A stretch of 64,000 nucleotides of DNA, taken from positions 382,001 through 446,000 of the forward strand of contig JAPMOS010000023.1 of the NCBI GenBank assembly GCA_027972325.1, given 5' to 3'. The number at the start of each line of letters is the position of its first letter. Positions within the stretch are counted from its first letter, which is position 1. The position numbers and the translations under genes were made by a program. Positions 399 through 53,800 of this stretch are shown here, piece after piece. The stretch comes from Paratrimastix pyriformis (taxonomy: Eukaryota > Preaxostyla > Paratrimastigidae). The notes below the pieces were generated by a model. That model was not told the DNA's origin, made no database searches, and saw only the letters and a list, made by a program, of their open reading frames with translations.

Positions 399-1788
399 TT
401 ATTGGGCTGCCACGGGGGCAGCGGCGGCGGCCTGGGCAGGGCCGGGGCTGGGCAAGGGCTGGGGCTGGGCAGGGCCGGGGCTGGGCAAGGGCGCCGCGTT
501 GGGGGCGGGCGAGGGCCCGCAGATGGCCTGCACGGCCTGGGCGGTCTCCTCGGGGCCCATCTGGGGGAGCCGCCCGCCCCGGAGCAAGGTGAGGAGGCCA
601 GTTGGTCGGCCCCATGGGCGGGTGGCAGGGGGGCCAAAGACCCAGAAGCGAGGGCGGGGGGGGGGGGGGGGGGGGGGGGGGGCGCACCTTGTCGAGGGGC
701 AGCTGGGCGAACCGGGCCAGCACGTCCTCCGCCTGCTCCTTCACTGCAGCCGCCCCGCCCAGCAACACGCCGTCCAACCCCCGAGGAGGGTGAGGGCGGG
801 CCGGCGGCCCGAGAAGGGGAGAGATCGTCGGGGGCATGCAGGCACCCATGCGGGCAGGCGGGCAGGCGGGCAAGTTGGTGGGGGACAGGGAGGGCCGGGC
901 GGTGGGCAGACTGGTGGCCGAGGGGGCCGCGCCCAAGGTGCCTGCCTGCTCGAGGTCGGCCAGCTTGGCCCGGGCCACGGCCAGCACGTCCGCCGGGAAG
1001 GCCGCCATCTCGGCCACGTGGATGCCGAAGCTCCGCTCGCAGGGCCCTGCTCGGCCCGGCCCGCCGCCACGCCACCGCCGTCACCCCGCCATTGATGATG
1101 AAGGGGGAGCCGCGTTGCCATCGGATGCCTTCGAGGCCCTGATCCCGATGGCTCGGGCGGGTGGGGGGCCTCCCTCCGTCTTGGGCCAGACGGGGGCTGG
1201 GGGCAGGGGTGGCGGGTGGCGGGTGGCGGGTGGCTGGGGGCGGACCGGGCATCACCTTGTAGAGGAAGACCAGCCGGGACTCCTCGGCGATGGCGCTCAC
1301 GTGGCAGTTGGCGATGGCCGGGTTGCGGGCCCCCAGCTCGGTTAGCTCTGGGGTGCCAGCAGGGATGTGACAAACCATCTGGGCGGGCGGCGGGGCGGCG
1401 GGGCGGCGGGGCGGCGGGGCGGCGGGGCGGCGGGGCGGCGGGGCGGCGGGCGGCGGGCGGGCGGGCGGGCGGGGGGGCGGACCGTGGAAGTGGGTCGAGA
1501 AGAGGGTCGGTGCGCGGATGGCGGTGGCGATGTGCTCGGCGATGGCCCAGGCCAGCCCGAAGCCGTCGTATGTGGAGGTGCCCCGGCCCAGCTCGTCGAT
1601 AATCAGCAGCGACCGCGAGCTGGCAGCCTGCCGCAACCCATCCACCCCCCCACATGCAAAAGGTGAAGCATGATGGCAAACGGGGCACACGGATAGGGGG
1701 CACACGGATGGGGGAGCACACGGATGGGGGGGACACACGAATGGGGGGGCACACGCACACGCACACGCACACGCGCACACACACACAC

Positions 1789-1837
<49 letters not shown>

Positions 1838-4800
1838 TGCGGGCCTTGATGATGGTGGCCGTCTCGAGCATCTCGGCCATGAAGGTGGAGACGCCCCGCA
1901 GGAGGGAGTCCCCGGCCCCCACCCGGGCCAGGATCCGGTCCCGCACCGAGATCTGCTCCCCCGCGCCCCCCACCGGCAGCCCCACGATGGCAGGTGAGGC
2001 GGCGAGGCACGCAGCGGGCTGGAGATGGCGATGCGATGTCCCGAGAAGGCAGGGCATGGGAGGGCGCGGGTGAGGCGGGGGCGGGGGCGGGGGCGGGCCT
2101 TGGCGGATGTGCAGGGGACGAAGCTGCCCAGCTGGGCCATCAGGCTGCCCTCGCCACCCCAAACAAGAGAGAGGGAGGGAGCGGGGGAGAGACCGAGCCA
2201 CACGGAGTGAGAGGGCGGCGAGCCACTGGCGGGGGAAGGGGACGGCGAGGGACAGGAGGAGGGGCAGGAGGAGGGGCAGGAGGGGCAGGAGGGCAGCGGA
2301 CACGATGACGCCCACCGTGCGGATGAAGGTCGACTTGCCCCCGCCTGCAGCCCCCCGCCCGCCCGCCCAGCGCACACGAGACGCACCGTTATGAGACAGG
2401 CGGAGGCAAGGGGGTGATTGAGACCCGCCCCAAGGAGCCCAAGGAGGGTCGGATGCCCGAGGGAAGGGCGGGGAGGGAGGGGCGGGCCGGACAGTTGGGG
2501 CCGGTGACGATCCAGAAGTTGTGCCGCTCCTCCTCGGTGAAGGCCCCTGGGCCCTCGGCTGGGGGCGGCGGGGCAGCGGCGGCGCCCGGGGCGGCCGTGT
2601 CGGGGGGCGGCACGAGGACGCAGTCGTTGGGGATGAAGTTGAGCCCGTCGAGGGTCTCCAGGCAGGGGTGCCGCATGCCCCGCAGCACCACCTGGCCCTC
2701 GTCGGGGTCCCCCATCACCGGCCGCACGTACGGGGTGGGCGCGCAGGCGGCCACGTGGGCCAGGGCCACGTAGATGTCCAGGGTCGACAGCAGGCTGGCC
2801 GTGTCCTCCATCACCGGGATGTAGCTCGCTGGGGGGTGATGTCGACATCACGTTGTGAGATTCGTGACGGGTCGATGATGGTGGTGCTGCGGACCTACGA
2901 TATCCAGGGCACGACTCTCGAGGTCCTTCTGTTTGGTGTCGTAGGTGCGGCATAACTCGAGATATTTCATCGAATTCGATCGAAGTTTGGGGTTGGTGAA
3001 CCGAACTCCGTCTTTGCGGGTCTCTAAGGCCTGGTAGGTGGGCTTTTGCCGAAGGACCTTCTCCTCCTTTCGGCTGGACAAAACAAGGGAAGGGGGGGGG
3101 GGGGGGGGGGGGGGGGGGATATAAAAAGGATGAGGTGAAAAAATGTTGCTGCCCGGGATCGAACCGGGGACCCCCAGTGTGTAAGACTGATGTGATAAAC
3201 CACTACACCACAGCAACTTATAGCACAGTTAGGGAAGTGCCATCAATAGTGAGGATCTCGCAGCACGGTGCGGTCGGGGGCGACGGACCTGAGGCGGAGG
3301 TAGTAGCCGAGGATGTTGTTGAAGTCCATCTTGAGCTTGCTCCCGTCGAGGCCCAGGTCGGTTCCAACCTGGTCGACCCACATGCGGTCCCAGTGCGCAA
3401 GTGCAAAGGGGGGATGGCGGGTGAGTGCCGCTCGGATGGGGGGCAGGCCGCGGCGGCGGACGGACCTCGGTCTTGATCTTGTCGATGGCTTTCTTGAGGT
3501 TCTCCCGGGCCGCGGCGAGCTCTTGCAGCTCCGGGTCGAAGGTGGGGTTGATCAAGTACTGGTGCTGTGAGCAGGAATAAGAATGGGAATGGGAATAAGA
3601 ATGGGAATGGGAATGAGAATGGGGCGAGCGTGGGAGGGGGGCGGGGACCTCGGCGAGCCGCTCGAAGTCGATGGTCTGCTCGATCATCTCGCGAAACTTG
3701 TCGAACTCCCCGCTCAGCTTCTGCGCGTGGGCCCCGGGGAGGGCGCCCGAAGGGCCGAGTGAGGGTCGAGGAAGGCCGGCCGAGGGGAGGCAAAGGTGGG
3801 CCGAGGGGAGGCAAAGGTGGGCCGAGGGGAGGCAAAGGTGGGCCGAGGGGAGGCAAAGGTGGGCGGATGAGCGGGCGGCGGGGGGTGCCGGACCTCGAGG
3901 GGGGCCGCGAAGACCCGCTCGAGGAGGGCGCGCTCCTTCTCGCCGAGGCCGCCCGGGGCGGGCAGGTCCTCGAGGGCCATCGCGGGCCCGTCGTCGTCCT
4001 CCTCGATGCGGCTCTTCTTCCGGGGCCGGTCGCCCGGGGCCCCGCCGGCCGTGGTCGCAGTGGCGGCGCCCAGCCCGCGGAGGGCGTCCACGAGCAGCGG
4101 CAGCCGCTGCACGCTCTGGTAGAGCCGCACCGCATCCTGAACGGGACGAGGCCGAAAGGCGTGGCGGTGATGGTCTGTCGCCCATGGGGTTGGAGAGGCA
4201 GGGGCGGCCGCGGCCGGGCGCCAGGCAAACCCTGCCCTCGCCAGGCAAACCCTGCCCTCGCCAGGCAAACCCTGCCCTGCCCTCACCCCCGGGGGGCCCG
4301 ACCTGGAGGGAGCCCTTGCCGCGCTGGAACTTCTGTGCGATCTTCTCGATGTCCCCGAAGTGGCCCAGGTGCTGGTCCTGGAGGCTCTTGCGCAGGGTCA
4401 GCTGCGAGAAGAAGATCTCCACGAAGTCCAGCCGCTCCTCTGCCCGTCGGGCCCGCACCAGGGGGGGGTCGGGGCGCATATGAATGGTGGCAGGTCGTGG
4501 TAGAGGGAGCCGAGCGGGGTGGCGCATCTGGTGTGACCGGGCGGGCGGGCGGGCGGGCGGGCGGGCGGACCGATGGGGGCCCGCTGGGCGAGTGGCTGCC
4601 GGATCCACTGGCGGAGGAGGCGGGCCCCCATGGGGGTGCGGCACTGGTTCAGCAGCCCGTACAGATGCAGCGTTCGCGCCCCTGCAGTGCAGCCGCAGCC
4701 GCCAGTCGCGGCCCGTCAGAAGCCGACCACCTCGACGCGGGCAAAGCGGCCAGGAGGGGGGCAGACAAGGGGCGGCGGGGCCTGGGCGGCGGACCGTCGA

Positions 4801-5766
4801 CGCCCGAGTCGAAGAGGTTCAGTGCCTGGGTGGCGGCCGCGTCGACCTTCAGGTAGCGGTCGGGTTCGAGTGGCTGCAGGAGGTACTTGCCCAGCGCATC
4901 GTCCCGCGAGAGAAGCTGCCCCAGCCGCCCAGCCGCCCAGCCGCCCAGCCGCCCAGCCACCCAGCCGCCCAGCCGCCCAGCCACCCAGCCGCCCAGCCGC
5001 CCAGCCGCCCAGCCGCCCAGCCGCCCAGCCGCCCATGCACCGATGCCAGCCAGCAGGGGTCGTCAGCCACGGACGGACGGAGCGGGACGGCGGAGGGACA
5101 GGGATGTCCATGGGGCCGGGAGGGTGGAGCAGAAGAAGGACCTCGTGCTGCTTGAGGATGCCCGCGAAGGCCGCCAGGGCCTGCCGGTGCTCGTCCGTCA
5201 CTGGGGCCGGGGTGAGGCAGGTGGAGACGACACTCCCGACCGGAGGCGCAGACCTGTTGTGCACCCCTCGGCTACCACCAGCCGCGTGAGGTCGTCGAAG
5301 GTCTCCTTGGGTTTGAAGGGCACTGCCGGGGGGAGTGAGTGAGGGAGGGGAAGAGGGAGGAGTTGGCAACACGGTCGGAGGCGGCCGACCTTTTTTCAGT
5401 TCTGTGGAACCAAAGGAAAGGGTGAGTCGGGTGAGAAAGGAAATGGGACCTTTCCCTTGAATCCCGCACTTTTGCAGGACTGCATTGATCTTCTGGCGAT
5501 CATAACTTTGCTCGGGGGGGATGAGAACTTCGGTCGTGCCCAGTTGGAGTAAGATACTCTATTGTTCGGGTAATGATGAGCGAACGGAACATAAAGAGGA
5601 CATGGACCTCAAGAGTATTAAAAGAGTCGCTGTCGAGAAACTCGCCCAAAGAAATGGTAAATTTGTTCAGATTTACCACGGCGACACCAACTTGCTTCTG
5701 AAAGCTTTTTGTCCCCCATGAAATCGAGACGACTTCCCCTGACCCTGCTTCGTCGTCACGGTCCAT
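399..5766 (-). CDS. MSH2: DNA mismatch repair protein MSH2 (22 exons, lacks MutS domain I)
   Basis: MutS-family ATPase of nuclear mismatch repair. Exons on the minus strand: 5608-5766, 5450-5558, 5390-5401, 5254-5322, 5142-5200, 4795-4915, 4571-4681, 4303-4439, 3894-4136, 3649-3720, 3466-3564, 3289-3368, 2895-3073, 2493-2828, 2302-2344, 2099-2144, 1845-1952, 1483-1627, 1246-1347, 942-1046, 688-743, 399-560. They join to exactly 850 codons plus TAA. The order of conserved blocks follows MSH2: connector, lever ([24 protein letters not shown]), clamp (KEEKVLRQ), then ATPase with [21 protein letters not shown], the Walker B/D-loop block [25 protein letters not shown] and [13 protein letters not shown]. 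Translation starts in the connector, so the N-terminal mismatch-binding domain (about 130 residues) is absent or sits on an unseen exon. Three introns begin with GC (744-941, 1628-1844, 1953-2098). Exon 5390-5401 is only 12 bp and could be skipped in frame. Walker A has Cys where MSH2 normally has Met. Confidence 0.93.
656..682. repeat. poly-G run in MSH2 intron
   Basis: About 27 consecutive G on the plus strand in intron 561-687, so the MSH2 pre-mRNA carries a C run directly after its GTGCGC donor. Length may be unreliable because of sequencing slippage. Confidence 0.9.
1750..1833. repeat. CA dinucleotide microsatellite in MSH2 intron
   Basis: Almost pure (CA)n with a few CG interruptions inside intron 1628-1844, which is one of the GC-AG introns. 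On the transcript this is a (GU)n tract just downstream of the donor. Confidence 0.92.
3092..3118. repeat. poly-G run in the tRNA-bearing MSH2 intron
   Basis: About 27 consecutive G, giving a C tract near the 3' end of intron 3074-3288, about 20 nt upstream of its TTGTCCAG acceptor and downstream of the nested tRNA-Val. Confidence 0.9.
3145..3217 (-). tRNA. tRNA-Val (anticodon TAC), nested in an MSH2 intron
   Basis: 73-nt cloverleaf on the minus strand. The 7-bp acceptor stem GTTGCTG/CAGCAAC pairs perfectly, the D arm reads GTGTAGTGGTTTATCAC, the anticodon stem TCAGT/ACTGG closes loop CTTACAC (anticodon TAC at 34-36), and the T arm is CCCGG-TTCGATC-CCGGG. The A and B box promoters are therefore intact. 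No intron and no encoded CCA. It lies entirely inside MSH2 intron 3074-3288 and on the same strand as MSH2. Confidence 0.95.
3775..3863. repeat. 20-bp minisatellite in MSH2 intron
   Basis: Four tandem copies of a 20-bp unit (GGCCGAGGGGAGGCAAAGGT) inside intron 3721-3893. The neighbouring introns 4137-4302 and 4916-5141 carry unrelated repeat units, so each intron has its own family. Confidence 0.9.
4919..5035. repeat. 8-bp minisatellite (CCGCCCAG)n in MSH2 intron
   Basis: About 14 copies of CCGCCCAG, with two CCACCCAG variants, in intron 4916-5141. On the transcript strand this reads as repeated CTGGGCGG and abuts the 3' splice site CTGGGGCAG. Confidence 0.9.
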
Positions 5767-5971
5767 TCAAAGCAGTTTGAAAGCACTGATAGCCTGTTTG
5801 ACCTGAACGGTTCTCTTCACTCCTTTCAGCTCATCAAGCACCCGCTTGAAAAAAAAAAGGGACACTCCTCTTTCCATCATTACGTTCTACGGCAAACCTT
5901 CACACCTTACTGCAGAGCGTCTTTTCGACCTACTTTGCACACATCCCGGAGATGTCTTATTATTTCATTGC

Positions 5972-8806: not shown

Positions 8807-9146
8807 GAACCGACCAGAACCCGATCAAGTGCCAAGTCCGGTGGACATTGGCGCCCAATTTCTGTTTCTTTCGTTTCATTTGGGGGTTCTATTTTTTGGC
8901 TTGTTTGCGTTCTCTGCAAGTGGCTGTGCTCTTCGTTGGTCCGATTGGGAGAGCGATCCCTCTTGGCTGACTTTTTTCTCCGGCTTTCCTTCAAAAATAA
9001 TATCTTTAGTAACGCTCGCCTTGAGAGGGGAAATGTAGAATTCGCTCCTGCCAGGCGCCCTTTGTGCCGCTGACAGAACGCAGCGCCCTTCTCCTGGTGA
9101 GCTTCCCACAGAGCCGGTGCCGAAAAACTGGAAAGACCGCCAAAAA
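8807..9146. other. Intergenic stretch between phosphatase and dehydrogenase genes
   Basis: 340 bp of lower GC content with no protein I recognise. It probably holds the phosphatase 3' UTR and the promoter of the dehydrogenase gene. TTCCCACAG at 9103-9111 looks like a 3' splice site, so a short 5' exon of the dehydrogenase gene may lie here. Confidence 0.4.
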
Positions 9147-11702
9147 ATGATCCCGCGATTTCTCGATCTGCTTTTATGCGAATCATACGGACCAAATTGG
9201 CGAACGATCATGAAAGTTGTCGCAGAGGAAGATCGGCGCTATCTCGAACTCGGACGATCAAACATCGCTCTTCTATCCAAAATCGGTATTGTCTCCGACG
9301 ATTTGGGGCCTTCCCTAATTGCAATCATGTGGCGAGATGACGGGAATCTTGAGGTCGGCGGATACCTCTCGGTTGATAATCTCGCGATGGGGATCCCGGC
9401 TGCTGGTGGCATCCGGATGCTCCCTCAACTCAAACCCGACACGATATTCAACCTGGTCGGTACACGCTCTTTGTGGCGAGGAGTCTCACATCTTGACCAG
9501 TCGCGCGGGATGACTCTGAAAAACGCGGCCGCGCTGCTCCCTTACGGAGGCGGAAAAGCGGGGATTGTCCTTCCCGATGGCGATCCACCAACTCCAGAAC
9601 AGCGCGAGCAAATTATGGTCTCTTTCGCGATGTTGCTCAAACGGTACCGATCCGTGTACCGTCCTGGCCCTGACGTTGGCACAAGCGATATGTCTGTTCG
9701 TGCACTTCCCGGGCGGGATGACTCCTCCGGCCCAGTGACATGGGAACCATCGCCATCTGCAACGGACTTGACTCGGCAGTGAGCAAGCCGAAGGATTTTG
9801 GCGGGAATCGAATCGATGAACTGGGGGCAGCGGGTGTGGGGACTGTTGTCGCGTTGGCGGCGATATTGCACGAGATGCCCCGCTTGGCGGCACATCCATT
9901 CTTTGGTCCTTCATATCAACTTCCTGCGCCAAACGACGTGACGGTGATGATTCAGGTTTGCTCCACCAAGAATGTCCACACTTCCAACCTCCGAAGGGCT
10001 TTGGGGCCGTGGGAGCCCACGCGGCACGAGCGACAAAACTGCTCCTCCCGGGTTCACGAGTGGTGGGCATTTCAGACGAATTCGGATACCTGTATTGCCC
10101 GGATGGCCTTCCGATTGAGGAGCTCTTCTCGCTGTGGAAGTCTGTACCCTTTTTTCACTGGAGCTGAAGGAAACTCGCCAAGGGAGAAGAGGCCTGTGAC
10201 ACCGTCCTTCTTCCAGAACACCCGGCAGCCGACTGGGAGCTGCCCCCGGATCAAGTTTTCCACATGCCCCAATGATATGCTCCGCGAAGATGCGTGTCTG
10301 CCAGGTTCTCCCGCCGCCTTGACTCGTCTGACCGGACTGGGGGATAGTTTGTTTGATCCCGGCGACTCCCCTCTGGAATTACGTCGACCCCAGTGGAAGC
10401 ACTGACCCTTGCGTGACCACGGCCAAGATGGGGCGTTGGCAGCTGGTGGTCGAAGGTGCAAACACCTACTCACCACTCCAGGAGCGCCGAGCGCAACGTC
10501 GGCGAATGGAGATTGAACTGTTCACGAACCGCAAGGTGAGTGACTCCTCGGCACTGGCACTGGCACATTTTGCACCCTGTAGATTTTGGTGGTCACTGAT
10601 TACTTGGTCAACTCGGGTGGCGTCATCTTCGCCAGTCAAGAGCTCGGCATCCCGACGCCACCTCACCTCCAGTTCCCACCTGAGAGTCTCGGCAACCCGA
10701 CGCTCGCAGCCCAGTGGCTTGCGGACCACCAAATCGAGTTCAACACACTGTGCGAGAAACGCCAGACAGCCGCCGAGAGGTGGCGCGCAGAAGCCATTGA
10801 GTCTGTCTCCCCCACCCCCCCTCCCTCCCTCCCCCCCCTCCTCCTCCTCCTCCTCCTCCTCCTCCCCTCCCCTCCCCTCCCTCCCCTCCCTCCCCTCCCC
10901 TCCCCTCCCCTCCCCTCCCCCCTCCCTCCCCTCCCTCCCCCCCCCTCATCCCCCATCCCCATCCCCCTCCGACGATCGTCGGACACTCAGAGGACCCGTT
11001 TTTTTCAGGACCAACATGCGCGAGTTCATCGACACCTTACTTGCAAAGCCCACCCTGCTCCCCTGCCAGGCCGCCGAACGGATCAGTATCAAGCGGCTTC
11101 ACAAAAAGGAGGCCGCCCGCACGGCCGCGTCCATCATGCAACCCCTTCGTCTGCGCCGCCCTTGCGGCGCCCTGCTGACCTTGATCATTCCCCTCCAGCC
11201 ACGGTGCTCGAGAGTGACACCCTGACAGCAGCCTGCGTGGCGATGCTCTCCAATGCGTCTCCTCTCGTGGGAGTCTTGAAGGTCGCCGAATCGCGGAATG
11301 CTCCTCTTTTATACCGAATACGGGATGGCGGCATAGGAGAATCAGCTGGTGGGCGTGCTGACCGAATGGGATATCACAGCCTCCATGGCCCGCGGCCTGC
11401 CGAGCGAGACCCCGGTCAGCCGGGTCATGAGCACCCAAGGTCGCTCCCCCCGTTCCTTCTTGCATACTCATTGGGGTCCAGTCGTCGCAGTGGGACCCCA
11501 GGAGTCGCTTGTTCGCTGCCTGACCTTACTCGAGACGCACAAGATTTCCAACCTCCCCGTGGTGGCTGCGGACGGGGTCTGGCGGCAGATTTCTTTCTGG
11601 AATCTCTAACAGTGGCACGCGGATGGATAGGCGGTGCAAGGCCTGGTGACTAGTGATGCTCTGGCAGCACGATCGCTCCGACTTTTCAATGGGCTCAAGT
11701 GA
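9147..11702 (+). CDS. Glu/Leu/Phe/Val dehydrogenase fused to a C-terminal CBS-domain pair
   Basis: Oxidative deamination or reductive amination of an amino acid, probably glutamate, with NAD(P). Exons: 9147-9691, 9736-9955, 9997-10139, 10170-10295, 10348-10535, 10583-10800, 11009-11148, 11199-11281, 11337-11439, 11482-11576, 11631-11702 (about 644 residues). Catalytic lysine motif LLPYGGGKAGI, then SKPKDFGGNRID, Rossmann glycine motif QGFGAVGAHAARAT, VVEGAN and VVTDYLVNSGGVIFAS are all present. After the family's C-terminal helix the frame continues through intron 11149-11198 into two CBS repeats (MQPLPTVLESDTLTAACVAML...LVGVLTEWD and SRVMSTQVVAVGPQ...SNLPVVAADGAVQGLVTSDA), so the fusion lies within one gene. 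One extra C in the run 10267-10270 breaks the frame between VFHMP and NDMLRED; this is a sequencing slip or a real lesion. ATG 9147 is the first in-frame; a 5' exon may be missing. Confidence 0.88.
10808..10960. repeat. CT/CCT-rich tract in dehydrogenase intron
   Basis: Pure pyrimidine stretch of TCC and TCCCC units filling most of intron 10801-11008, which ends in TTTTTTTCAG. It forms an unusually long polypyrimidine tract. Confidence 0.85.
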
Positions 11703-11827: not shown

Positions 11828-13948
11828 TCATTGAGCGGGTGCGGGGTCAGAGGCGGGGGCGGGGGCGGGGTCAGAGAGCAGGGAGGGGGCAGGGGCCGCA
11901 TCCGGGGATGAGACGGGGGCAGCGGGTGTAGGGGCAGTGGCAGTGGCAGGGGCAACATCGGCAGCTGGTGGGGCAGCCGACTCGGCAGCGGGGGGCAGTC
12001 GGGGCGGGGCGGCCTCAGCCGAGGCGGGCACTGGGCTATGGCTACAAGAAGGAAGCAGAAGGGAATGGGGATGATGGTCGTCACACGCTCGTCACATGGC
12101 CACCGGGGCAGCGGGTCGGGAGGGCGGCTGGGGCTGACCTGCGGGCGCGCTTGTCGTCGGCGGCCGAGGGGGAGGGGCTCCGGGAGTGCTTCCTGGATGC
12201 CGAGGAGAGGGAGCCGGAGGATGAGGAGGAAGAAGACGGGGCAGATACACGGGATCATCAGAGCGAATGCCAGGTCGGTGGCAGGCAGGCGGGGGCAGGC
12301 AGGCGGGGGCAGGCAGGCGGGGGCAGGCAGGCGGGTCTGGAGGGATGGGCATGTGTGGAGCCAAGGATGGGTGGGGCGAGGAGACGAACCGCTCCGACGG
12401 GGCGCTGGCCGACGAGTCGCCGGATGGGGCAGCTGTGGCTGTGGCTGTGGCCGTTGTGGGGTCGGCCGGCTTGTCGGCCTTGTCCTTCTCCTTCTCCACC
12501 CGCTCGGCGGCCTCCTTGTCGCGGCTGCTCCGCCGGTCGCTCTCGTGCGAGTCGTGGTGCCTGCAATCGCACGCCCCCCCACCCACAGCGCAGCGCAGTG
12601 TGCCCCCACCAGCCCAGTGGTCGGAATCGATGCGTGGGGCACCTTCCCACCGGCTTCGATGGTGGGGGGTGGGCTGGGGGCGCTCACGGACCGGTGGCTG
12701 CTGCGGCTGCGGTGGCGGTCGTGGGAGGAGCGGTCGTGGTGGTCATGGTGGTCGTGGTGGTCATGGTCACGGTCACGGGAGTGGTGCGAGTGGTGGTGCG
12801 AGTGGTGGCCGTGGTCGCGGTCGTCCCGGTCGTGGTCCCGGCCCCGGGAGCCATCTTGCGGCCTGGCATGGCATGCCCGCACCCCCATCAAGCAGAGTGT
12901 CAGCCCCAACACGGGCGGGCGGGCGGGCCGAAGGAGGGACGGCGGCGGCTGGGGGCTGGAGGGGCCGTGGCTGGGGGCTGGAGGGGCCGTGGCTGGGGGC
13001 TGGAGGGGCCGTGGCTGGGGGCTGGAGGGGCCGTGGCTGGGGGCTGGAGGGGCCGTGGCTGCGGGGTGCTGGGCGGACCTGGGGTGGAAGTCCTGGCCGT
13101 ACCCGTAGCGGGAGCGGCGGTCGTCGCGGCCCCGAGAGCGGCTCCGGCTCCGGCTGCTGGGGCGCTTGCTGTCCGAGTGGCCGAAGAGCTTCTTCCGCAG
13201 CCGGGAGGAGATGTCCAGCAGGTGCAGGAAGTTGCACACGCCCCCCCGGTCGCACTGGCCCATCTCGTACTGGCGGCAGCGGGCCTCGCGGAAGTCCGTC
13301 ACGGGGGTGAGCTCCGCCAGGATGGGGCGGCCCCCGTAGAAGCGGCCCGCCAGTCCCTGGACGCACCGAGTGGCACTCTCCTCATCGGCGAACTTGACGT
13401 AGACGTTGCCCAGGAGGTGCTCGCAGAGGTTGTCGCACTGCGAAGAAGGAAGGTGCCAATGATGGGGAGGGGGTGGAGCAGACCACTTGCAACTCTTCGA
13501 TCTCACCGAACTTTTGCAGCTCGCCGTAGACGTCTTCGTAGAAATCTTCGAATTGCTGTGGGTGGTGGAGGGGGGATGTATGAGTGGCGAAAGGGGCAGT
13601 GTGGCGGGCGTGCAGGAAAACTCAAAATCGCTGAAACCTCCCACCTCTTGCGCAAAGAGACCTGCTGAACCTGTTTCCTGTCGATCTGGGCCGCGGCATT
13701 GGGCATGTTGGCAATGGCGGCGAGGGGATTGTTAAACATGTGCTGGATGAGGACCGATTGTGAGAAGAGTGGACGATTGTGCTGTCGACTGCACCGATCG
13801 CCGTGACGGCAGGCACCCATCTTAAAATAGAAGGGACAGTTCCTAGGCGGCGAAACAGTCGAGCGATCATCGTGATCGGTGGAGGAAACAGGCGAACGGA
13901 CACTTTGTCCTGCTCTGTGCCATAGATTTGGGCGAGTTTCTGTGCCAT
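11828..13948 (-). CDS. U2AF1: U2AF small subunit (U2AF35/U2AF1) with long His/Arg/Ser-rich tail
   Basis: Recognises the AG of 3' splice sites with U2AF65. Exons 13902-13948, 13662-13842, 13484-13555, 13079-13437, 12692-12862, 12390-12560, 12139-12192, 11828-12041 give 422 residues in frame. First CCCH finger CPFYFKMGACRHGDRCSRQH, then the atypical RRM (QFEDFYEDVYGELQKFGEIEE, NVYVKFADEESATRCVQGL), then the second finger CRQYEMGQCDRGGVCNFLH: the diagnostic order of U2AF35. The tail starts with SRSRSRGRDD and becomes His/Asp/Arg-rich (HHSHHHSHHSRDRDHDHHDH), then a charged and a Pro/Ala-rich segment, making the protein much longer than the roughly 240-residue human form. Intron 12863-13078 carries a ~21-bp minisatellite. 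Start codon is 103 bp from the divergent Rpn8 gene. Confidence 0.93.
12945..13066. repeat. ~21-bp minisatellite in U2AF35 intron
   Basis: Five to six tandem copies of GGGGCTGGAGGGGCCGTGGCT inside intron 12863-13078. Confidence 0.88.
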
Positions 13949-16630: not shown

Positions 16631-17373
16631 ATGGCTCGTAACTTCAGGAAGACCTTCAAGGGTCCCCGTCACCCATTCGAGAAGGAGCGTCTTGATGATG
16701 AGTGCAAGATTGTTGGCGAGTACGGTCTCCGCTGCAAGCGGGAGGTGTACCGCATTGAGGTCATGCTGAGCAAGGTCCGGACTCCTGCACATGCACCAGA
16801 GGATGCTGTTGCGCTGAAAATGATAAATATGTGTTGCAAGCCAACCAATGGCCGAACTTCATCATTTGTTTTCTTGGGCATGGTTGATTAGATTCGTGAT
16901 ACTGCTCGCGAGCTTCTGACCCTCTCTGAGAAGGATCCTCGCCGTGTCTTCGAGGGCCCCGCTCTCCTCCGCCGTCTGACCCGCCTCGGCGTTCTCGATG
17001 AGACCAAGCAGAACCTGGATTACGTCCTGGCTCTTAAGGTTCAGGATCTCATGGAGCGCCGCCTTCAGACTCTGGTTCTGAAGAAGAAGCTCGCCAAGTC
17101 CATCCACCACGCCCGTGTTATGATCACTCAGGGCCATATCCGGTCCGCTTTCCCCAGTTGCCCCACCCTGATTCATACCTTTTCAGCGTTGGCAAGCAGA
17201 TCGTCACTGCCCCCTCTTTCCTTGTTCGCACTGACTCTGAGGCCCACCTCGAGCTCTCCGCTCGCAGCTCCCTGGCTCCCGGTGGCCCCCTGGGCCGTGT
17301 TCGCCGTATGGCCGCCAAGTCCCACCCCAAGGCCGCCGCTGAGGATGCCGCTCCCGCTGAGGATGCCGAATAA
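16631..17373 (+). CDS. RPS9: 40S ribosomal protein uS4 (S9)
   Basis: Small-subunit ribosomal protein binding 18S rRNA early in assembly. Exons 16631-16774, 16892-17142 and 17187-17373 give 193 residues, the usual length. It opens [39 protein letters not shown] and contains the S4 RNA-binding block [20 protein letters not shown] split by intron 17143-17186. It ends in an Ala/Glu-rich tail. Donors are GTCCGG and GTCCGC. Codon choice is less GC-extreme than in neighbours, in line with a highly expressed gene. Convergent with BBS8, 119 bp apart. Confidence 0.97.
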
Positions 17374-30191: not shown

Positions 30192-33100
30192 ATGGCTTCT
30201 GAGATTGACCTTCAGACTTGGCAGCGTGCTGTTGCTGGTGGCATCCCGTCCGAGCTGCCCCAGCACCCCGGTCCGAGTGATCCGAGTAATTTCCTTTCTT
30301 CCTCATCGGACGTGATAGGCATCACCTCTGGCATCCCTCATGCCCCGAAGCGGAACCACCAGCTGCAGCCTGCTGAGAAACGCGTCAGTGGCTTATCCGC
30401 GTTCGTCATTTTTTTATCCTCTTCATAGCTGGCCCTGGAAAACGCCCTCCGGTACATCCCGGCCATGTGGCACGAAACCCTTGCCAAGGAGTTTCTGGCT
30501 GAACTGGAAAACGATGGCCATATTTACATGCGCCGGTTCCGTCCCACCTATCGGATGTACGCGCACCCTCTGGAGCATTATCCCTGCCGGTGCAAGCAGG
30601 CCGGTGTGATCATGCTCATGATTCAGAACAACCTCGATCCTGCTGTTGCCCAGTTCCCCGAGGAGCTTGTTACCGTCTGCAGATATTTTTCACCCCACTT
30701 TTCGACGCACGGCTCACGGATGTCTCTTTTCGCAGTATGGCGGCAATGGCACCGTCTTCCAGGTCTTTGCATCCGATCCTCCGCGCGCACGCTCCCTCAA
30801 CCGTCACGTCTTGCCACCTTGCTAGAACTGGGTTCAGTACCTGCTGGTGATGCACTACCTGAGCGAGATGACCGACCACCAGACCCTGGTCATGTACTCG
30901 GGCCACCCGCTTGGGCTCTTCCCCAGCCACCCCGACGCGCCCCGGGTGTGCATCACCAACGGGATGATGATCCCCAACTACTCCTCCAAGACCAAGTCCG
31001 TGCCCACCGCGCTTCCCCCTTCGCCTCTGCCTGCCCCGCCTGGTCGGACCCTCATGCCCATGCCCATGATGCCCATGCCCATGCCCCGTATGCTCGGATG
31101 CCGTGGTGCCTACGCAGCTATGACCGCATGTACGCCCTGGGGGTCACCCAATACGGCCAGATGACCGCCGGCTCGTACGCATGTCCGTCCCACGGCCCCC
31201 CTGCTGCCCCCCCGCCCTGACGGCCCCCCCCTGGCCGGTGACGGTTTGGCTGGTTGGCTGATCTGCGGGTTCCGCCCCTTGGCAGACATCGGCCCGCAGG
31301 GCATCGTCCACGGGACCACCCTGACCGTCCTCAACGCGGCCCGCAAGTACCTCGGCACCCAGGGGCCCACCATCCCCGGCCGCGTCCGTCCCCCGCCCCA
31401 CCCTGGCCCCGGTCATCGCCCCGGTCGTCGCCCTCGCCCCCGCCCGGACGCTGACCCTTTGCCATGATCCTTGGTGCAGGTGTACCTGTCGGCCGGCCTG
31501 GGCGGGATGAGCGGGGCCCAGGCCAAGGCGGGCACCATCCTGCAGGGCATCTCGGTCATCGCCGAGATCAACGGTCCGCCGCCCCCGCGCCCCCGCCCCC
31601 GCCCCCGCCCCCGCCCCCGCGCCCTCCTCACCGACGATGACGACCCGCCTCGGCCGCAGAGGCGGCCCTGATGAAGCGCCACCGGCAGGGCTGGGTGACG
31701 GACGTTGCCCGGGACCTGCCCACCGTCGACCGGCTCGTCCGCGAGGCCCGCGCCCAGCAGCGGTCCCTCTCAGTCGGCTACCTGGTCCGTCCCCCCCCCG
31801 CCCCCGCCCCCCGCCCCCGCCCCCGCCCCTGCCCCACGGGAAGGATGGGCGCCTCCTCCCCTCCTCGGTGGTCCTGACCATGGCCCCGGTGGGGCGGGCC
31901 CCAGGGGAACGTGGTGGATCTGTGGGAGCACTACGCCCAGCTGGCCGAGCGGGGCGAGCACGTGGTGGACCTTGCCTCGGACCAGACCAGCCTGCACAAC
32001 CCCTACGGGGGCGGCTACTACCCGGTGGGGCTCTCCTTCGACGAGGCCAACCGCATGATGGTCGAGAACCCGGCCCTCTTCAAGTCCGCACCTCCACTGC
32101 CTGCCCCCATTGTCCCTCGCGCCCGCCTGGGGGCGCGGTGTGCGGAGCCGCCTTTGTGTGCCCGCCGCCCCGCCGGTGGGCTCATCATCCCCACCTGGGT
32201 GGCTCTTGGCGGCTCGGTGGGGCGCAGGGAGAAGGTGCAGGAGTCGCTGCGGCGCCAGGTGCGGGCCATCAACACCTGCTGCCAGCACGGCGTCCGCTTC
32301 TGGGACTACGGCAACGCCTTGTCCGTCCGGCGGCCCCGGCGCCTCCGCCTTTGCCCCGGCGATCCTCCCGCACACGCACACGCGCAGACGCACACGCGCA
32401 GACGCACACGCGCAGACGCACACCCAGCCCAACGGCTCACATCTGCTCTGGCTGGGCACCCCCCGGGGTTGGGGTTGGGGTTGGGCAGCCTGCTTGAGGC
32501 CAGCCGGGCCGGGGCGGAGATCATGAACCCCACGGGGAGCGGCTTCCGGTACCCGACCTACTTCGAGGAGTTCATGGGGGACATCTTCTCGATGGGCTTC
32601 GGGCCCTTCCGCTGGGTGTGCACCTCGGGCCTCGAGAGCGACCTCCTCGAGACCGACCGCATCGCTGCCGAGGTGCTCACCGTCCGCCCGCATCGCCCCT
32701 CCCCCACCGCCCCCACCATATGATGCCAGAGGCCGCTCCCACCCCGGCCACTGCCACCGCCGCCGCCCCCGACCCCGTGCTCACCACCGCTGCTGCTGCT
32801 GCTGCTGCTGCTCGGTTTGGGCTCTGCCTGGGTGGGGCCGTGCCATGGGATGGGGTGGGGCGCAGAGCCTGATGGAGGAGGCCCGCCGGGCGGCCCATCT
32901 GGAGGCCGACTTCCGGACGCGGCTCATCCAGCAGTACCAGGACAACCTGCACTGGATCCAGCAGGCACACGCCAACCGGATGGTGGTCGGCTCGCAGGCC
33001 CGCATCCTCTACTCCGACGAGCGCGGCCGGATGGCCATCGGGCTGGCCTTCAACCAGGCCATCAAGGAGGGCCGCCTCACCGCCCCTGTGGTCCGTCACC

Positions 33101-33635
33101 CCGCCCGACCTACCGCCCTACCGCCTACCGCCCTCACGCCCTCACGCCCGGAGGGGAGGTGGCTCGGCACGGCCACTCACGGACCGTCGTCGTGCTCTTG
33201 GGGTTGGGGTTGGGGTTTCGGCGGCAGGCCCTGAGCCGCGACCACCACGACGTCAGCGGGACCGACTCGCCCTACCGCGAGACGTCCAACATCAAGGACG
33301 GCAGCCAGTTCACGGCCGACATGGCCGTGCAGACCTTCCTCGGCAACGGCTTCCGCGGCGCCACCTGGGTCTCCCTCCACAACGGCGGTGGTGTTGGGTG
33401 GGGCGAGGTCATGAACGGTGGCTTTGGCCTGGTCGTCGACGGCACCGATGATGCCGCCCGCCGTGCGGCTGCCATGCTCTCGTGGGATGTCAACAATGGT
33501 GTGGCCCGGCGCGCCTGGTCCAAGAATGAGTGCGCTCGGTATGCCATTGCCCGCGCCATGGATGCTGATCCCAACCTCCGCGTTACTCTCGGCGAGAAGG
33601 TCGCGGCCAATGTCCTCGATGCGCTCCATCTGTAA
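30192..33635 (+). CDS. UROC1: Urocanate hydratase (urocanase)
   Basis: NAD-dependent hydration of urocanate to imidazolonepropionate, the second step of histidine degradation. Exons: 30192-30270, 30319-30383, 30429-30674, 30736-30762, 30826-30995, 31118-31182, 31286-31383, 31480-31573, 31660-31784, 31905-32083, 32228-32320, 32489-32681, 32866-33090, 33228-33635; 688 residues in frame. Conserved blocks: HAPKRNHQL, VMYSGHPLGLFPSH, the NAD-binding glycine region GLGGMSGAQAKAG, DQTSLHNPYGGGYYP, GSGFRYPTYFEEFMGDIFSMGFGPFRWVCTSG (the catalytic Cys lies in WVCTSG), FNQAIKEGR and SLHNGGGVGWGEVMNGGFG. The 27-bp exon 30736-30762 encodes YGGNGTVFQ, which is universal in the family and so confirms the microexon. 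Nearly all donors are GTCCGY. Confidence 0.97.
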
Positions 33636-34860: not shown

Positions 34861-34891
<31 letters not shown>

Positions 34892-44356: not shown

Positions 44357-44411
44357 CGCTGCCGGACACGGTTCCAGCAAGATAGTGCGCTCAACCGGTG
44401 GCAATTGCGGC
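44357..44411. promoter_or_regulatory. Compact bidirectional promoter of ORC4 and formate-THF ligase
   Basis: Only 55 bp separate the proposed ORC4 start (44356, minus strand) from the formate-THF ligase start (44412, plus strand). No TATA box is obvious. Both genes must share this stretch or place promoter elements inside each other's 5' coding region. The 5' ends could shift if non-coding first exons exist. Confidence 0.5.
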
Positions 44412-47400
44412 ATGCTCCAGTTTTGGCATCTCGCTCGCTCGGCGAGCACTCAGCCACCAGATGTGGTAATTTCGCAAAGCGCGAAGCTTCTTCCAATTCA
44501 AACAGTAGCGAAAAATATTGGGCTTCTGGATGAGGAAATCCTGCCGCATGGGAGCACGGTTGCCAAAGTCAAGCTGGACGTACTGAAACGGCTTGCCGAT
44601 CGACCCAATGGAAATTACGTCGACGTGACTGCAATGTCTCACATTTTTTGGGGAATTTTCATCTGCTAAATTCGTTCTTCCTGCTGGATTATTAGCTCGC
44701 CAACCCCACTGGGCGAAGGCAAGACGACCACAACAATCGGCCTCTCCCAAGCGCTTGGAGCTCATTTGAAAAAGAAGGTCATGACTGTGATCCGCCAGCC
44801 CAGCCAAGGTCCGACTCGTCCTTGGCACCCTCACGGGCTACACCTTCACCCAGGTCCCACGTTCGGCATCAAGGGCGGTGCAGCCGGGGGCGGTTACTCA
44901 CAGATTGTACCCATGGAGGTCGGCGATTCGCGGCTCTTCTGAGATTTGAACCCATGGTGATTCCCCCCCTCGCAGGACATCAACATCCACCTGACGGGCG
45001 ATTTCCACGCAGGTCCGCGGGTCGTTGTCTCCCCCTGGGCGCTGGGTCGGGGCCAGTGCTGTGGCAGCACCACGGAATCTGGTGTGGTCCACTGACGGGC
45101 GCGTGTGGTGGTGGCGTGGGTGGCGTGGGTGGTGTGTGTGTGTGTGGGGGGGCGTGGGTTACAGTGACGGCGGCCAACAACCTGCTGGCGGCGGCCATCG
45201 ATGCGCGCATGATCCACGAGGCCGGCGCCACGGACGAGCAGCTCTTCAACCGGCTGGTGCCCGAGGGGCGGCCCTTCACGCTGCCCATGCTGCGCCGGCT
45301 GGGCCAGCTGGGCCTCGCGGGGCGCACCCGGGACCAGCTGAGCCCCGCCGAGCGGGCCCGCTACGCCCGGCTGGACATCGACCCGGCCTCGGTCACCTGG
45401 ACCCGGGTCATGGACACCTCGGACCGCTTCCTGCGCGACATCGAGATCGGCCGCGACCCCGAGGCTCGCGCCAAGGGATGCGCACGCCAGACGGCATTCC
45501 AGATCACCACAGGTCGGCCGCCCCACCCGAGCAGCCCTCGCACAAACCGCCTGGATATCCCGTGCCCTCACGTGCCGTTGTGGCCGCTCACTCTGTGGCT
45601 GTCGCGCTCCGCCTGGGCGCTGGCTGGCAGCCTCGGAGTGCATGGCCATCCTGGCCCTGGCCACCAGCCTGGCCGACCTGCGGGAGCGCCTGGGCCGGAT
45701 CGTGGTGGGGGTCTCCCGGTCGGGCCGCATGGTCACCGCGGACGACCTCGGGGTCGCCGGTGCCATGGCCGTCCTCATGAAGGAGTCCGCTCGCACCGCC
45801 ACCATGCACCCCCATGCACCCCCAGGCACCGCCATGCACCGCCATGCACCGCCATGCACTGCCCCAGCCTGCTGTTCTCGGGTGGTGGAGCGCTTCCACG
45901 ATCACCAGGGCCCCGGGGGGCGGCTGGGGGGGCGCCGCAGCACGATCATGCCCAACCTGATGCAGACCCTGGAGGGCACCCCGGCCATGGTCCACGCGGG
46001 CCCCTTCGCCAACATCGGTCCGCCCCTGCGCCCCCCCTGCACTGGCCATGATGGACCCGCATGAGTGTGTCATCTCCCATCATCGCCTCCACGATTGGGG
46101 GGCCTCTGCCTGCGGGGCGCAGCGCACGGGAACAGCTCGGTGGTTGGGGACCTCGTGGGCCTGAAGCTGGTCGGCCGGGACGGCTACCTGGTCACAGAGT
46201 CCGGCTTCGGGGCCGACTGCGGCATGGAGAAGGTCCCGCACTTGCCCCCTCCGCTCCATGGCGGACCTTGGTGGGGGGCCCCTCCGCTCCATGGCTGACC
46301 TGGGTGGGGGCCGGGTTGCGGCGGTCCGTCTGGTCTGCTGGGTGGTGGTTGGGGGGCCGGGGGCAGTTCTTCGACATCAAGTGCCGCATGAGCGGGCTGC
46401 GCCCCCAGGCGGTGGTCCTGGTGGCCACCGTGCGGGGCCTCAAGCACCAGGGCGGCGGCCCCCCCGTCGTCGCCGGCCAGCGCCTCCCCAAGGTCCCCAC
46501 AGCACCGACCCAGGCCGCACCTCGGCCACGCCAGCACCACCTGCCCCCGCCTGGTGGGCGCGGGATGCTCATCCTCTGCGGCCGCCCCTCCCCCTCCGGC
46601 AGGCCTACACGAGCGAGGATCTGGGGCTGCTGCGGCGGGGCCTGTGCAACCTGGAGCGCCACGTGCGGAACGCGACCCTCTTCGGGGTGCCCACCCTGGT
46701 GGCCATCAACTACTTCCCCACCGACACCCCCGCCGGTCCGCCCCCGCCCCCCGCAATGGGCCACAGCCCAGAGCCGCCCTCCAGGCCCACCCGCCGCCGA
46801 TCCTAACTAGCGGCCTCCTCATGGCGAGACGCGACGGCTCGAAAAGCACTACAGAGGCGAGCCCCCGAAAGCGAATAGGGCGGTTCCCCCTGGCCGGGCG
46901 CGCCCCGATCACCGCCACGCCCACCTCGTCTCACACCTGCCCGCCGCCCACCTCGCCTCTGATGCATCACCACCGCGCCTACTCGGGCTGGGGGGACGGT
47001 GGACTGGTGGTGGTGGGGGCTGCGCAGAGATTGAGCTCGTCCGGAAGGCGGCCCTGGCGGCGGGGGCCACCGACGCGGTGGTGGGGCGCCACTTCAGCCA
47101 GGGCGGCGCGGGGGCGGTGGAGCTTGCCGAGGCCACGGTGGCGGCCTGCCGGCGGCCGAGCCGGTTCGAGTACCTGTACCCGCTCGAGATGGGCATCAAG
47201 GAGAAGATCCACACCATCGCCACCCGCATCTACGGCGCTCGCGACGTCAAGTTCGCCCCCGCAGGTCCCCTCCCCTCCCCGCGCCCAACGCCCATATGCC
47301 CGTATGTCCATATGCCCGTATGCCCATATGGCCCATATGCCCATATGCCCGCCCGGGTCACGCCTGGTCCTTCCGGCCGCACCGCCCACGGGTACCTGCG

Positions 47401-47892: not shown

Positions 47893-48235
47893 GCCCCCCC
47901 GACCTGCCTCCTGGGCGGGCCAACGAGGCCCCCCGCAGGTGGATGTGGATCGGCCCCATGTATAGCCAAGCATATATCGGCCTCCCCGCCGGTCGCCGTG
48001 GGGGAGGATCATGATGATTGTATCGATAGCGAGGTCTTGTACAGACGAGCCATGCGGCTCTTCAGAAGAGAAGAAGAATAACAGCATGTAGCACCACCAC
48101 CACCACCACCACGCAGCACCGCAGGACCAGTGGGCAGTGGGTGACAAGGGGATGGGTGGACACACCAATCCCGCCCCGCCCCCCGTCCTGGGCCTCCCAG
48201 GGCATGAGGGGCGAATGCGGGGGCTGCTCCTCCGC
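47893..48235. other. Convergent intergenic region
   Basis: 343 bp between the FTHFS and LRR stop codons. It has a (CCA)n tract near 48095-48112 and no coding sequence that I can support. Presumably the 3' ends of both transcripts. Confidence 0.5.
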
Positions 48236-50771: not shown

Positions 50772-50855
50772 AAGGAGATTCGAACAAAGCCCGGCCGGTC
50801 TTGATTTTTGGCGACGGCTTTTTGCCGACGCCGTGGATTATTTTCCCTGTGTTGA

Positions 50856-53800
50856 ATGAGTGACTTAATTGACTTGAAGAGGGCCATTCTTTTGCGCGAC
50901 ATTGGCGCCCTTCAGCAATTTTTCCGTCGATCTCAGAACAGCCAGGGGTTGGTGAACTGGGTTGACGAGGAAGGCCTCACACCACTTCATCACGCCTGTA
51001 CAAACGGATTTTCTGAGATCGCCACCATGCTCCTAAGCTATGGCGCACTCCCTGATTGTCGAGATCGGGTCCGTCACCGCGACACCACTTTCTCCTTTCA
51101 TTTCCGATGGATTCGTCGCAGGTTGGGCGGACCCCCCTCCACCACGCCTCCTTGCGTGGATTTGCCGAGACCTGCGCGGCTCTGCTTGCACGGAATGCGA
51201 GCCTGGAGGCCCAGGACAAGGTCCGCTCGGGGTCCGCTCGCGTCCCGTCCGGCTGACCGGCTCGCAGGATGGCCAGACGGCCCTGCACCTGGCCTGCCGG
51301 GGAGGCCATCTGGAGGTGATGCGGCTTCTGCTGGACCGTGGCGCCGGCATGGAGACCCGCTTCACCGTCCGCCCGCCCGCCCGCCCGCCCGCCCGCGGTG
51401 GTGGGCCCCGGGTTGCGCCCATCCCCCATCCTCCATCCCCCCATCCCTCGGTCATCTCCCTGGGCACAGGAGGGCGGCCGGGCCCTGCACCTGGCCGCGG
51501 TGCACAAGCAGGTTGGCGCCCTGAAGCTGCTCATCGAGCGGGGGGCCCTCCTCGACGAGCCCGACAAGGTCCCCACCCGTGACCCATGCCTCACCTGCCC
51601 CGTGCCCCCACCCGTGACCCATGCCCTACGCCGCCCTTGGCTGGGACACCCCTCCGCCCGCCGCCGAGCCGCACCGCAACCTCCCCGCATCCCCACCTCG
51701 CGGGTGCCCCGGCCGGGATGGGATGGGGACGCGTGCAGAAAGGGGACACCCCGCTGCACCGTGCCTGCCTGAAGGGCTCCCCGGAGGCGGTTGCGGTGCT
51801 GCTGGAGGCGGGTGCGGCCCCGGAGGCTGTCGACCAGGCCGGCTGGCGGCCCCTCCACCTGGCCTGCGTCCAGGGCAACATGGACGTCGCCGCCCTGCTC
51901 CTCGCCAGGGGCGCCCGCCTCGACGCGCCCTTTCCGGTCCGCACTCACCCCGGGCGGGCAGGGGGGGGGGGGGGGGGGGGGGGGAGGGTATGGGCCGATG
52001 GAGCAATGGGACTTTGGCCCGCGCAGTGCCTTGACGTTCCTGGGGGGTGCGGTGGGTGCCGTACTGTGCGGTGCCGTGCTGTGGTGTGGGCGCCGCCAGA
52101 ACGGGCTGCTGCCGCTGGGTATGGCCGCCCTGCGGGGCCACGTGGGCATGGCAACCCTGCTCCTCGACAGGGGCGCCCCCATCGAGGCCCAGGTCGAGGT
52201 CCGTCCCGCCCCGCCGCCCCGCCGCCCCGCCGCCCCACCGCTCCGGGGGATGGTGGCGTGTGTGGGCCATCCGCGGGTCACGACTGCCGGCCGTGGGCGT
52301 GCCCATTCCTCACGACGGCCTCTTCCATCCCGGCCGGGCGGGGGGGCTGGCTGACTGGGCGGGCAGGGCGGCGGGACGGCGCTGCACCTTGCCTGCAAGG
52401 AGGGCATGGAGGAGCTGGCCGCGGTGCTGCTCGACCGGGGCGCCGACATCGAGGCCCAGGCCAGGGTCCGCCACCACAGACACACACACCCACACCCACG
52501 CACACACGCCAGCCTCGGCCCCGTCCCCTGCCCTCCCCTTCCCCCAGCCCCCTCCTCCCCTCTCCCTCGCGGCGCTCCCCGCGGCTGCCGCTGGGCTCAC
52601 GGCGGCCTGCTGTGTGCTGTGCTGTGTGCTGTGTGTGCTGTGTGTGCTGTGTGTGCTGTGTGTGCTGTGTGCTGTGTGCTGCGGGGGGCGCCCATCCAGA
52701 ACGGGGCCCGGCCCCTCCACCTGGCCTGCGCCTACGGGCACATCGACTGCGCGCACCTGCTCGTCGCCCGGGGCGCCCAGCGGGGCCCCCAGGACCGGGT
52801 CTGAGGGCCCTCCTCCCCGTGGCCGCCCCCTCCTGTCCCTGTCTGCTGCTGACCCTGGCTGATCCCTGGCTGCCTTCCTGCCTTCCTCCACGGGTGGACG
52901 GTGGGCGGGTGGGGTCCGTGCAGGCGGGCATGCGACCGGCCGACTTCGTGCCGGCTGAGAAGCGACCCCTCTTCGACCAGCTCTGGGCGGTCCGCACCCC
53001 GCACCCCGCACCCCACACTCCACACCCGCATGGGCCAGCGCAGGCCAGTACGGCCGGCCGTGTGTCCGCTGGGCTGCTGACCGGGGGCCGCTTCATCCGT
53101 GGGGGCGGGCGGGGCGTCCAGGGCCGCTACGTGCGCACCAGGCGGCAGGAGGCCCCCGACCCGCGGGCGGCCGCCACTGGGCCGGCAAACATCCTCCCAG
53201 ACAGGCGCCGCCAGGGCCAGCAAGGCCAGGGTCAGGGGTCCCCTGCCCCCTCAAGCCAGCAGGCTGGCTCGGGGTTTGCCCCTGAGGGCGAGGCCACCGA
53301 CGAGGGACCGCCCGGGGCCCCGCAGCCCCAGCGGCCGCATGCCCCCCCACCGGGCGCCCCGGCCCCCACCCCGCAGCAGCAGCAGCAGCAGCAGCCCGAG
53401 CAGTCTCCGCCCGGCCAGGCCGCCCCCACGTCGCCCGGGGGCCGGAAGGCTTCGCCCCGCCTGGGGCCACTCCTGGTCGGGGGGGCCGCCGGGCCGGGGG
53501 GCCGCTACGTGCCGCGGGTCTCGAGCCCGCTGGCCCGGGTGCCGCCCCTCTCGGCCCAGCCGCCCAGCCCCTCACCCCCGCCCTCACCGTCGCCCCCGCC
53601 CACCCCAACCGCCGGCGCTCTCGAGGCGGCCGCCGCCATCCCGCTGCCCGCGCCCCAGCCCCAACCCCAGGCCCGCCACCCACCCTCGGCCGAGGCTGGG
53701 ACGGGGGCGACCTTCATGGGCGCCGGGCCGGCCCTGGGCGGCGCCGCGGCCCTGGCCCTGACCCGTGGGACGGGGCCCGCCCCCTTCGGCAGCGGCTCCC

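Follow-up and report, generated by a model that had tools for sequence, protein, structure and literature searches.

Predicted introns of Paratrimastix pyriformis begin mostly with GTC and face a U1 snRNA with an altered 5′ end

The 5′ end of U1 small nuclear RNA (snRNA), which reads AUACUUACC in the canonical U2-type spliceosome of animals, plants and yeasts, and the consensus of the donor (5′ splice site) constrain each other over thousands of introns, and for that reason the two are usually regarded as immutable. Parker et al. (2023; PMC10581693) reported ACUUACC as invariant in the U1 candidates of 227 out of 230 Saccharomycotina and 9 out of 10 outgroups, and named a change from pseudouridine to A at U1 position 5 as a conceivable compensation. 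A nucleomorph paper gives ACUUAC for Guillardia theta and describes the motif as fully conserved in Bigelowiella, a Giardia paper gives ACUUAC for U1, and Irimia and Roy raised snRNA changes in Ostreococcus as a possibility only. Here we describe the introns of a 64,000-nucleotide stretch of Paratrimastix pyriformis DNA (GCA_027972325.1, contig JAPMOS010000023.1, positions 382,001 to 446,000; hereafter the window) together with a search of the whole genome (Metamonada, Preaxostyla; 56.06 Mb in 495 contigs). Of the predicted introns that we checked, about nine in ten begin with GTC, not with the usual GTA or GTG. Very probably they belong to the GT-AG class handled by the major spliceosome, and their donor code and U1 snRNA were rewritten together.

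P. pyriformis resembles the canonical system in its predicted GT-AG introns, U1 register, U6 ACAGAGA box, U2 and U5 loop, but U1 positions 5 and 6, which are U and U in that system, are A and G here, with C at donor position +3 and a pyrimidine at +4. The diplonemid S. specki also has a natural U1 gene with an altered 5′ end; there, however, a canonical U1 is described as persisting beside one copy with a run of C (PMC12621601), whereas in P. pyriformis all eight full-length copies found and the donors have changed. Switches from A to U in Saccharomycotina likewise took +4 away from A, but with U1 and U6 unchanged and with +4 U accompanying the absence of METTL16 (PMC10581693); in P. pyriformis, U1 has changed, and METTL16-like and SNRNP27K exons remain. 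The tunicate Fritillaria borealis departs genome-wide from the usual splice sites too, although its two U1 versions are reported to have identical 5′ ends and U2AF and N6-methyladenosine (m6A) are proposed to have adapted (PMC13326754). Within Preaxostyla, the oxymonad Streblomastix strix shares intron-dense genes but has A, U and G at +3 to +5 in the 21 introns described, which fits canonical U1 (PMC1501061); the U1/donor change therefore probably arose on the Paratrimastix side. We ruled out a likeness to the nonconventional introns of euglenids and diplonemids, which have no complementarity to U1, because the P. pyriformis donors are complementary to it.

In text searches of the open-licence literature, outside which most subscription papers and preprints lie, the matches listed held no precedent for a complete natural U1 replacement of this kind, the nearest being the second, C-rich diplonemid U1. 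The main text of the genome paper (PMC10703272) contains neither “spliceosom” nor “snRNA”, and has “intron” words twice (once in a reference title) and “splice” once.

The genome appears to hold a natural double change of the U1/donor pair in an intron-rich organism. It makes testable how such a code drifts, whether U1 or U6 leads, and whether METTL16 and SNRNP27K dictate +4. The role of the two uridines at U1 positions 5 and 6, which are pseudouridines in human and yeast, becomes testable as well, both being gone in P. pyriformis. Gene prediction that has GTRAGT priors built in may go wrong on this genome.

Donor sites of the predicted introns

We placed introns with a purpose-written protein-to-DNA spliced aligner that takes every GT..AG intron from 25 bases upwards and has no further donor preference; GT and AG were imposed throughout, so AT-AC introns could not appear. 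The reference proteins were all foreign to P. pyriformis: Prp8 (P0012), urocanase (P0123), MSH2 (P0241, the one P. eleionoma protein used), and FTHFS (PDB 4ioj chain) and eight CCT subunits as PDB chains. Each intron was compared with its rival in-frame GT..AG placements, up to 24 bases away at both ends, and its placement was called unique when none of these came within 3 score units. This procedure placed 105 introns in 12 genes, whose coding sequence amounts to 21.8 kb (4.8 introns per kb); 103 of the introns were placed uniquely. Requiring uniqueness and a score of 2.0 units or more per reference residue left 88 introns, with 17 dropped (2 ambiguous and 15 with a low local score). Alignments of MSH2 to a second reference (18 introns) and of urocanase to the deposited P. 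pyriformis protein (12 introns) were kept outside the 105.

C occupied +3 in 94 of the 105 introns (T 7, G 3, A 1) and in 80 of the 88 (T 6, A 1, G 1). In the set of 88, +4 was a pyrimidine in 83 (C 52, T 31, G 3, A 2), +5 was G in 81, and +6 was mostly T (44) or C (33), with G in 9 and A in 2; on the exon side, 70 had G at −1 and 40 had A at −2. Positions +3 and +5 hold about 1.5 bits each, calculated as 2 minus entropy. The donors read GTCYG in 71 out of 88 introns, GTCYGY in 64 and GTCTGT in 12, and none read GTRA. A sequence-only reading of the window had proposed a non-canonical GTCCGY or GTCTGY donor with C at +3, and these counts bear it out. Prp8 alone contributed 16 introns, all unique, of which 15 began with GTC and one with GTT. 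Inside the window, the homology set comprised 31 introns in three genes, 28 of them with GTC (urocanase 13/13, FTHFS 7/7 and MSH2 8/11), and 23 out of 24 well-placed window introns had GTC. Nine further genes outside the window gave the same donor picture.

We obtained a second intron set from a codon-usage gene model with a bare GT..AG rule and no donor preference, using round 0 only. It gave 90 introns in the window, 70 of them with GTC (78%), and 189 introns over all loci then analysed, 134 of them with GTC. The sequence-only reading had put GTC at over four in five of about 140 introns; the codon-usage rebuild of the window falls slightly below that share. Self-training rounds 1 to 5 of the codon model were discarded for over-splitting (1017, 1282, 1325, 1338 and 1342 introns, with 679, 786, 769, 740 and 721 GTC, and GTGGGG-like words rising). 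Self-training that started from any dinucleotide did not recover GT and so gives no evidence that GT itself is required.

GC content in the window runs from 61% to 80% by 4-kb steps, and the first intron list had been made by eye; the motif might then be an artefact of GC-rich sequence or of misplaced introns, with true GTRAGT donors nearby. We regard this as very improbable. All but two of the 105 introns lacked an alternative in-frame placement, no donor read GTRA, and C follows GT at 36.5% of 1678 sites in the same gene bodies, against which 80 out of 88 has a P of about 2e-26. GTCYGY occurred 98 times in sense and 29 times in antisense orientation in the 12 gene bodies. In the window, AGGTCYGY occurred 19 times versus 9.6 expected by shuffling, a count reached in 1 out of 100 shuffles, while AGGTRAGT was not enriched (2 versus 1.34 expected). 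Moreover, U1 matches the motif. Base composition as an explanation was rejected for +3 and +5 and partly accepted for C at +4 and +6.

The deposited P. pyriformis urocanase (P0121, 679 residues) implies 12 introns, all 12 with GTC; its donors equal 12 of the 13 obtained with the foreign reference, and acceptors were concordant in 10 out of 12. The codon-usage draft of this window gene, 631 residues long, was 100% identical to the deposited protein. Gene models for P. pyriformis are described as built with RNA-seq intron hints and PASA (PMC10703272).

The 5′ end of U1 and its fit to the donors

Searching the genome with the Rfam U1 model (RF00003) returned eight loci on eight contigs, covering model positions 1-166 with E values of 3.7e-13 to 2e-10. 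All eight full-length genes begin AUACAGACCUUG, where the canonical sequence is AUACUUACCUGG. Their first 12 bases are identical (ATACAGACCTTGCTTGG; Rfam consensus AUACUUACCUGGC), and the 5′ end contains ACAGACC in 8 out of 8, not ACUUACC. The two substituted bases, at positions 5 and 6, face +4 and +3. When we searched with the 141-base U1 body, omitting the first 15 bases, we recovered the same eight loci, one 32-base fragment running into N, and no other full-length copy. Two loci scanned against all Rfam families at E<=0.01 matched U1 alone, over its full length (1-166). A CCCATAA element resembling a proximal sequence element (PSE) lies at −59/−60 in all eight genes, with the spacing seen in the three U2 genes compared, which supports A as +1 of the U1 RNA; in four U5 and four U6 genes, CCCATAA lies at −53/−54 and −66/−67.

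The sequence-only reading had called for compensating changes in U1 and perhaps U6. The U1 part stands, with A5 and G6 complementary to GUCUGU in all eight full-length loci; the U6 part does not, all four copies being unchanged. For its commonest donor class, GTCCGY, the compensation is incomplete, in that C at +4 stands opposite A in both RNAs.

In the register used, U1 A1 U2 A3 C4 A5 G6 A7 C8 C9 U10 U11 G12 faces donor positions +8 to −4, with G6 opposite +3 and A5 opposite +4. When all four bases were tried at each U1 position, the organism's own base complemented the 88 donors best at 9 out of 12 (3, 4 and 6-12, of which 7 and 8 face the imposed GT); it came second at positions 5 (behind G) and 1, and last at position 2. 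U11 stands in place of a consensus G and faces −3; A was seen there 32 times versus 21.0 expected from codon position and C 27 times versus 25.5, a weak effect. The mean minimum duplex energy of the 12-base donors was −8.5 kcal/mol with the organism's own U1 and −4.5 kcal/mol with canonical U1; 2000 random GT sites gave −4.4 and −3.6 kcal/mol, respectively. Among the eight donors without C at +3, six had T, the G-U wobble partner, versus a 30% background share (P 0.012), and seven had A at −2, compared with 33 out of 80 donors with C (uncorrected P 0.021), as would be expected of compensation. The donors are thus complementary to their own U1 5′ end, +4 C excepted, as expected of U2-type introns.

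Read as a mechanism, the U1 5′ end AUACAGACC is complementary to a G followed across the splice site by GUCUGUAU, through A5 and G6 in place of U5 and U6, and +3 C is almost fixed opposite G6. U1 would pair with the donor from about −2 to +6 and then pass positions +2 to +6 on to U6 with the register unchanged; this would remove the conflict between U1 and U6 preferences that exists at +3 and +4 in the canonical system. Opposite A (U1 A3 and A5), introns would accept C besides U, aided by the GC-rich genome, yielding GTCYGY rather than GTCTGT alone.

U6, the minor spliceosome and position +4

The four U6 genes share one sequence (96.7 bits) that contains GAUACAGAGAAG, equal to the Rfam consensus. 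The U6 box GAUACAGAGA is kept in 4 out of 4 copies, all of which carry the AUACAGAGA box, already complementary to UCUGU. After its two changes, U1 reads AUACAGA at positions 1-7, a word also present in U6. In the accepted register +4 lies opposite the middle A of ACAGA (PMC10581693), and the two RNAs read the same stretch of the intron. Out of eight donor words tried, GUCUGU was the best with both the organism's own U1 and the U6 word. Since U1 and U6 carry AUACAGA in one register, a single donor word suits both; with GTCTGT in only 12 introns, the perfect double fit is a property of the consensus and not of most introns.

This coincidence allows another order of events, in which U6 and not U1 selects GTCYG, the donors having moved to fit the unchanged U6 box and U1 having followed later or neutrally. 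The unchanged U6, its complementarity to UCUGU and a U1 change that copies the U6 word all fit such a course, and U6-led selection is discussed elsewhere (PMC11732430); but +4 C faces A in U6 too, and the enriched −1 G and −2 A fall beyond the bases that U6 pairs with, suggesting a role of U1 or U5. We hold it possible, with clearly less confidence than a joint rewriting of donors and U1. Equally tentative is a fusion of the two codes: U1 may have taken the U6 word AUACAGA, so that one RNA sequence would read +2 to +6 two times over and the U1-U6 compromise at +3 and +4 would be abolished; U1 A5 might be modified like the U6 adenosine, which would explain why C equals U at +4, and, the U6atac word also being off consensus, both spliceosomes might have been recoded.

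The U6atac gene (G000:C445:22122-22254, L068) scored 46.6 bits (cut-off 33), has the same PSE-like element, and carries the donor-pairing word GAGCCGAGAGAAGG where the Rfam consensus is GAAAGGAGAGAAGG. With this gene and its promoter-like element, a minor spliceosome is likely, and it could in principle serve the GTC introns. The U12 donor consensus is RTATCC; GTATCC occurred in 0 out of 88 donors (ATATCC could not appear with GT imposed), and the donors match U1 and the U6 word and occur in all 12 aligned genes, making U12-type service hardly credible. Genes for U2, U5 and U6 snRNAs are present with conserved cores (U5 loop CGCCUUUUACUA), and Prp8 is 81% identical to the reference used.

The PSE-like CCCATAA is common to the U1, U2, U5, U6 and U6atac genes (L001-L012, L059-L062, L065-L068), often after a run of T; the U6 and U6atac genes additionally have a TATA-like stretch.

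Several observations tell against a donor code rewritten together with U1. C at +4 (52) exceeds T (31) even though A faces +4 in both RNAs; G at U1 position 5 would fit better. Relative to the introns' own C:T content, +4 T was neither favoured nor avoided (31 seen, 33.0 expected). T at +4 associated with T at +8 and A at −3 (uncorrected P 0.002 and 0.018), which runs contrary to compensation and may reflect local GC content. The U1 matches scored 50.8-60.2 bits, below the Rfam curated cut-off of 69.5, and scans of four of the loci at the gathering threshold did not list U1; we called the loci U1 from anatomy, promoter and donor match, not from the Rfam cut-off. As to the cloverleaf fold, U1 aligns to the model over its full length, but when its sequence is folded singly, some of the 5′ region, starting at position 4, is paired. 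U1C was not found: PF06220 (zf-U1) matched one exon only (G000:C86:24809-24916, L058), and a human U1C query gave the same exon and one match with E 0.62. WW-domain-like residues follow this match, so we take the exon to be probably WBP4-like and not U1C. Loss of U1C, divergence and an intron inside the finger are all compatible with the miss. Lastly, a 27-base exon (30736-30762, plus strand; YGGNGTVFQ) that is conserved in P0123 is missing from both the deposited urocanase P0121 and the codon-usage draft, which join its two flanking introns, so RNA support of the deposited model is not assured.

At +6, which also faces A in both RNAs, T was favoured (44 seen versus 30.6 expected, P 0.0008). 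C at +4 and C at +6 were both associated with higher intron GC, and in the 88 donors we saw no compensation between +4 C and other donor positions. A modified or protonated U1 A5 (inosine, m6A or A+.C) could account for acceptance of C at +4: the C:T proportion there mirrors that of the introns, even though T would be the better partner of A, whereas +6 favours T, a METTL16-like exon is present, and U1 now has ACAGA, whose central A is methylated in U6. However, the GAA found after ACAGA in U6 is missing from U1, and the use of C opposite A also varies with local GC content; we consider such a modification unlikely. In our preferred reading, C is tolerated opposite A, and any m6A in U6 would cancel the advantage of U at +4, m6A having been reported to destabilise A:U pairs (Parker et al., PMC10581693).

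The METTL16-like sequence is one exon matching PF05971, a family that also matched in 5 out of 14 prokaryote controls; we assume the METTL16 name from an NPPFF motif. An SNRNP27K exon is present with YRQYMNRKG, which presumably contains the Met141 equivalent. By the yeast association, these two exons would predict +4 A, and P. pyriformis departs from this, U1 being what changed.

Individual introns in the window

The donors that the sequence-only reading had named in MSH2 (3288 and 2894, minus strand) were recovered at those exact positions by homology, and that in uS4 (17143) exactly by the codon-usage model alone. The donors it had named in urocanase (31784) and FTHFS (46017) were each one base early, the alignments putting the donor G at 31785 and 46018. 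The letters GTCCGT stand at 51069, a putative donor, and GTGAGT at 10536, a candidate intron at most.

Table 1. Predicted introns in the window, with donor words and the basis of each placement
Feature	Coordinates	Strand	Donor	Basis and remarks
MSH2 intron	3074..3288	-	GTCCGTCG	Uniquely placed by spliced alignment to P0241 (P. eleionoma MSH2)
MSH2 intron	2829..2894	-	GTCCGCAG	Alignment to P0241
MSH2 intron	3369..3465	-	GTCCGTCC	Alignment to P0241
MSH2 intron	2345..2492	-	GTCCGGCC	Alignment to P0241
MSH2 intron	1348..1482	-	GTCCGCCC	Alignment to P0241
MSH2 intron	1047..1245	-	GTCCGCCC	Alignment to P0241
MSH2 putative intron	2554..2613	-	GTGCCGCC	Sole well-scored non-GTC in window; acceptor GAG; possibly alignment artefact; counted
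uS4 intron	17143..17186	+	GTCCGCTT	Codon-usage model with bare GT..AG; no homologue alignment
Urocanase intron	30675..30735	+	GTCTGCAG	Alignment to P0123; deposited P0121 has same donor, other acceptor
Urocanase intron	30996..31117	+	GTCCGTGC	P0123 and deposited own protein P0121 concordant
Urocanase intron	31183..31285	+	GTCCGTCC	P0123, P0121 concordant
Urocanase intron	31384..31479	+	GTCCGTCC	P0123, P0121 concordant
Urocanase intron	31574..31659	+	GTCCGCCG	P0123, P0121 concordant
Urocanase intron	31785..31904	+	GTCCGTCC	P0123, P0121 concordant
Urocanase intron	32084..32227	+	GTCCGCAC	P0123, P0121 concordant
Urocanase intron	32321..32488	+	GTCCGTCC	P0123, P0121 concordant
Urocanase intron	33091..33227	+	GTCCGTCA	P0123, P0121 concordant
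FTHFS intron	45785..45940	+	GTCCGCTC	Alignment to PDB 4ioj chain
FTHFS intron	46018..46122	+	GTCCGCCC	Alignment to PDB 4ioj chain
FTHFS intron	46736..47027	+	GTCCGCCC	Alignment to PDB 4ioj chain

A gene model at 12461-13739 (minus strand) presumably encodes the small U2AF subunit (U2AF35), which it resembles. GC-rich simple tandem repeats lie at 1381-1470 and 4921-5040, inside placed MSH2 introns, and a tRNA gene (62.2 bits; 3144-3217, minus strand) lies on the same strand within the MSH2 intron at 3074-3288.

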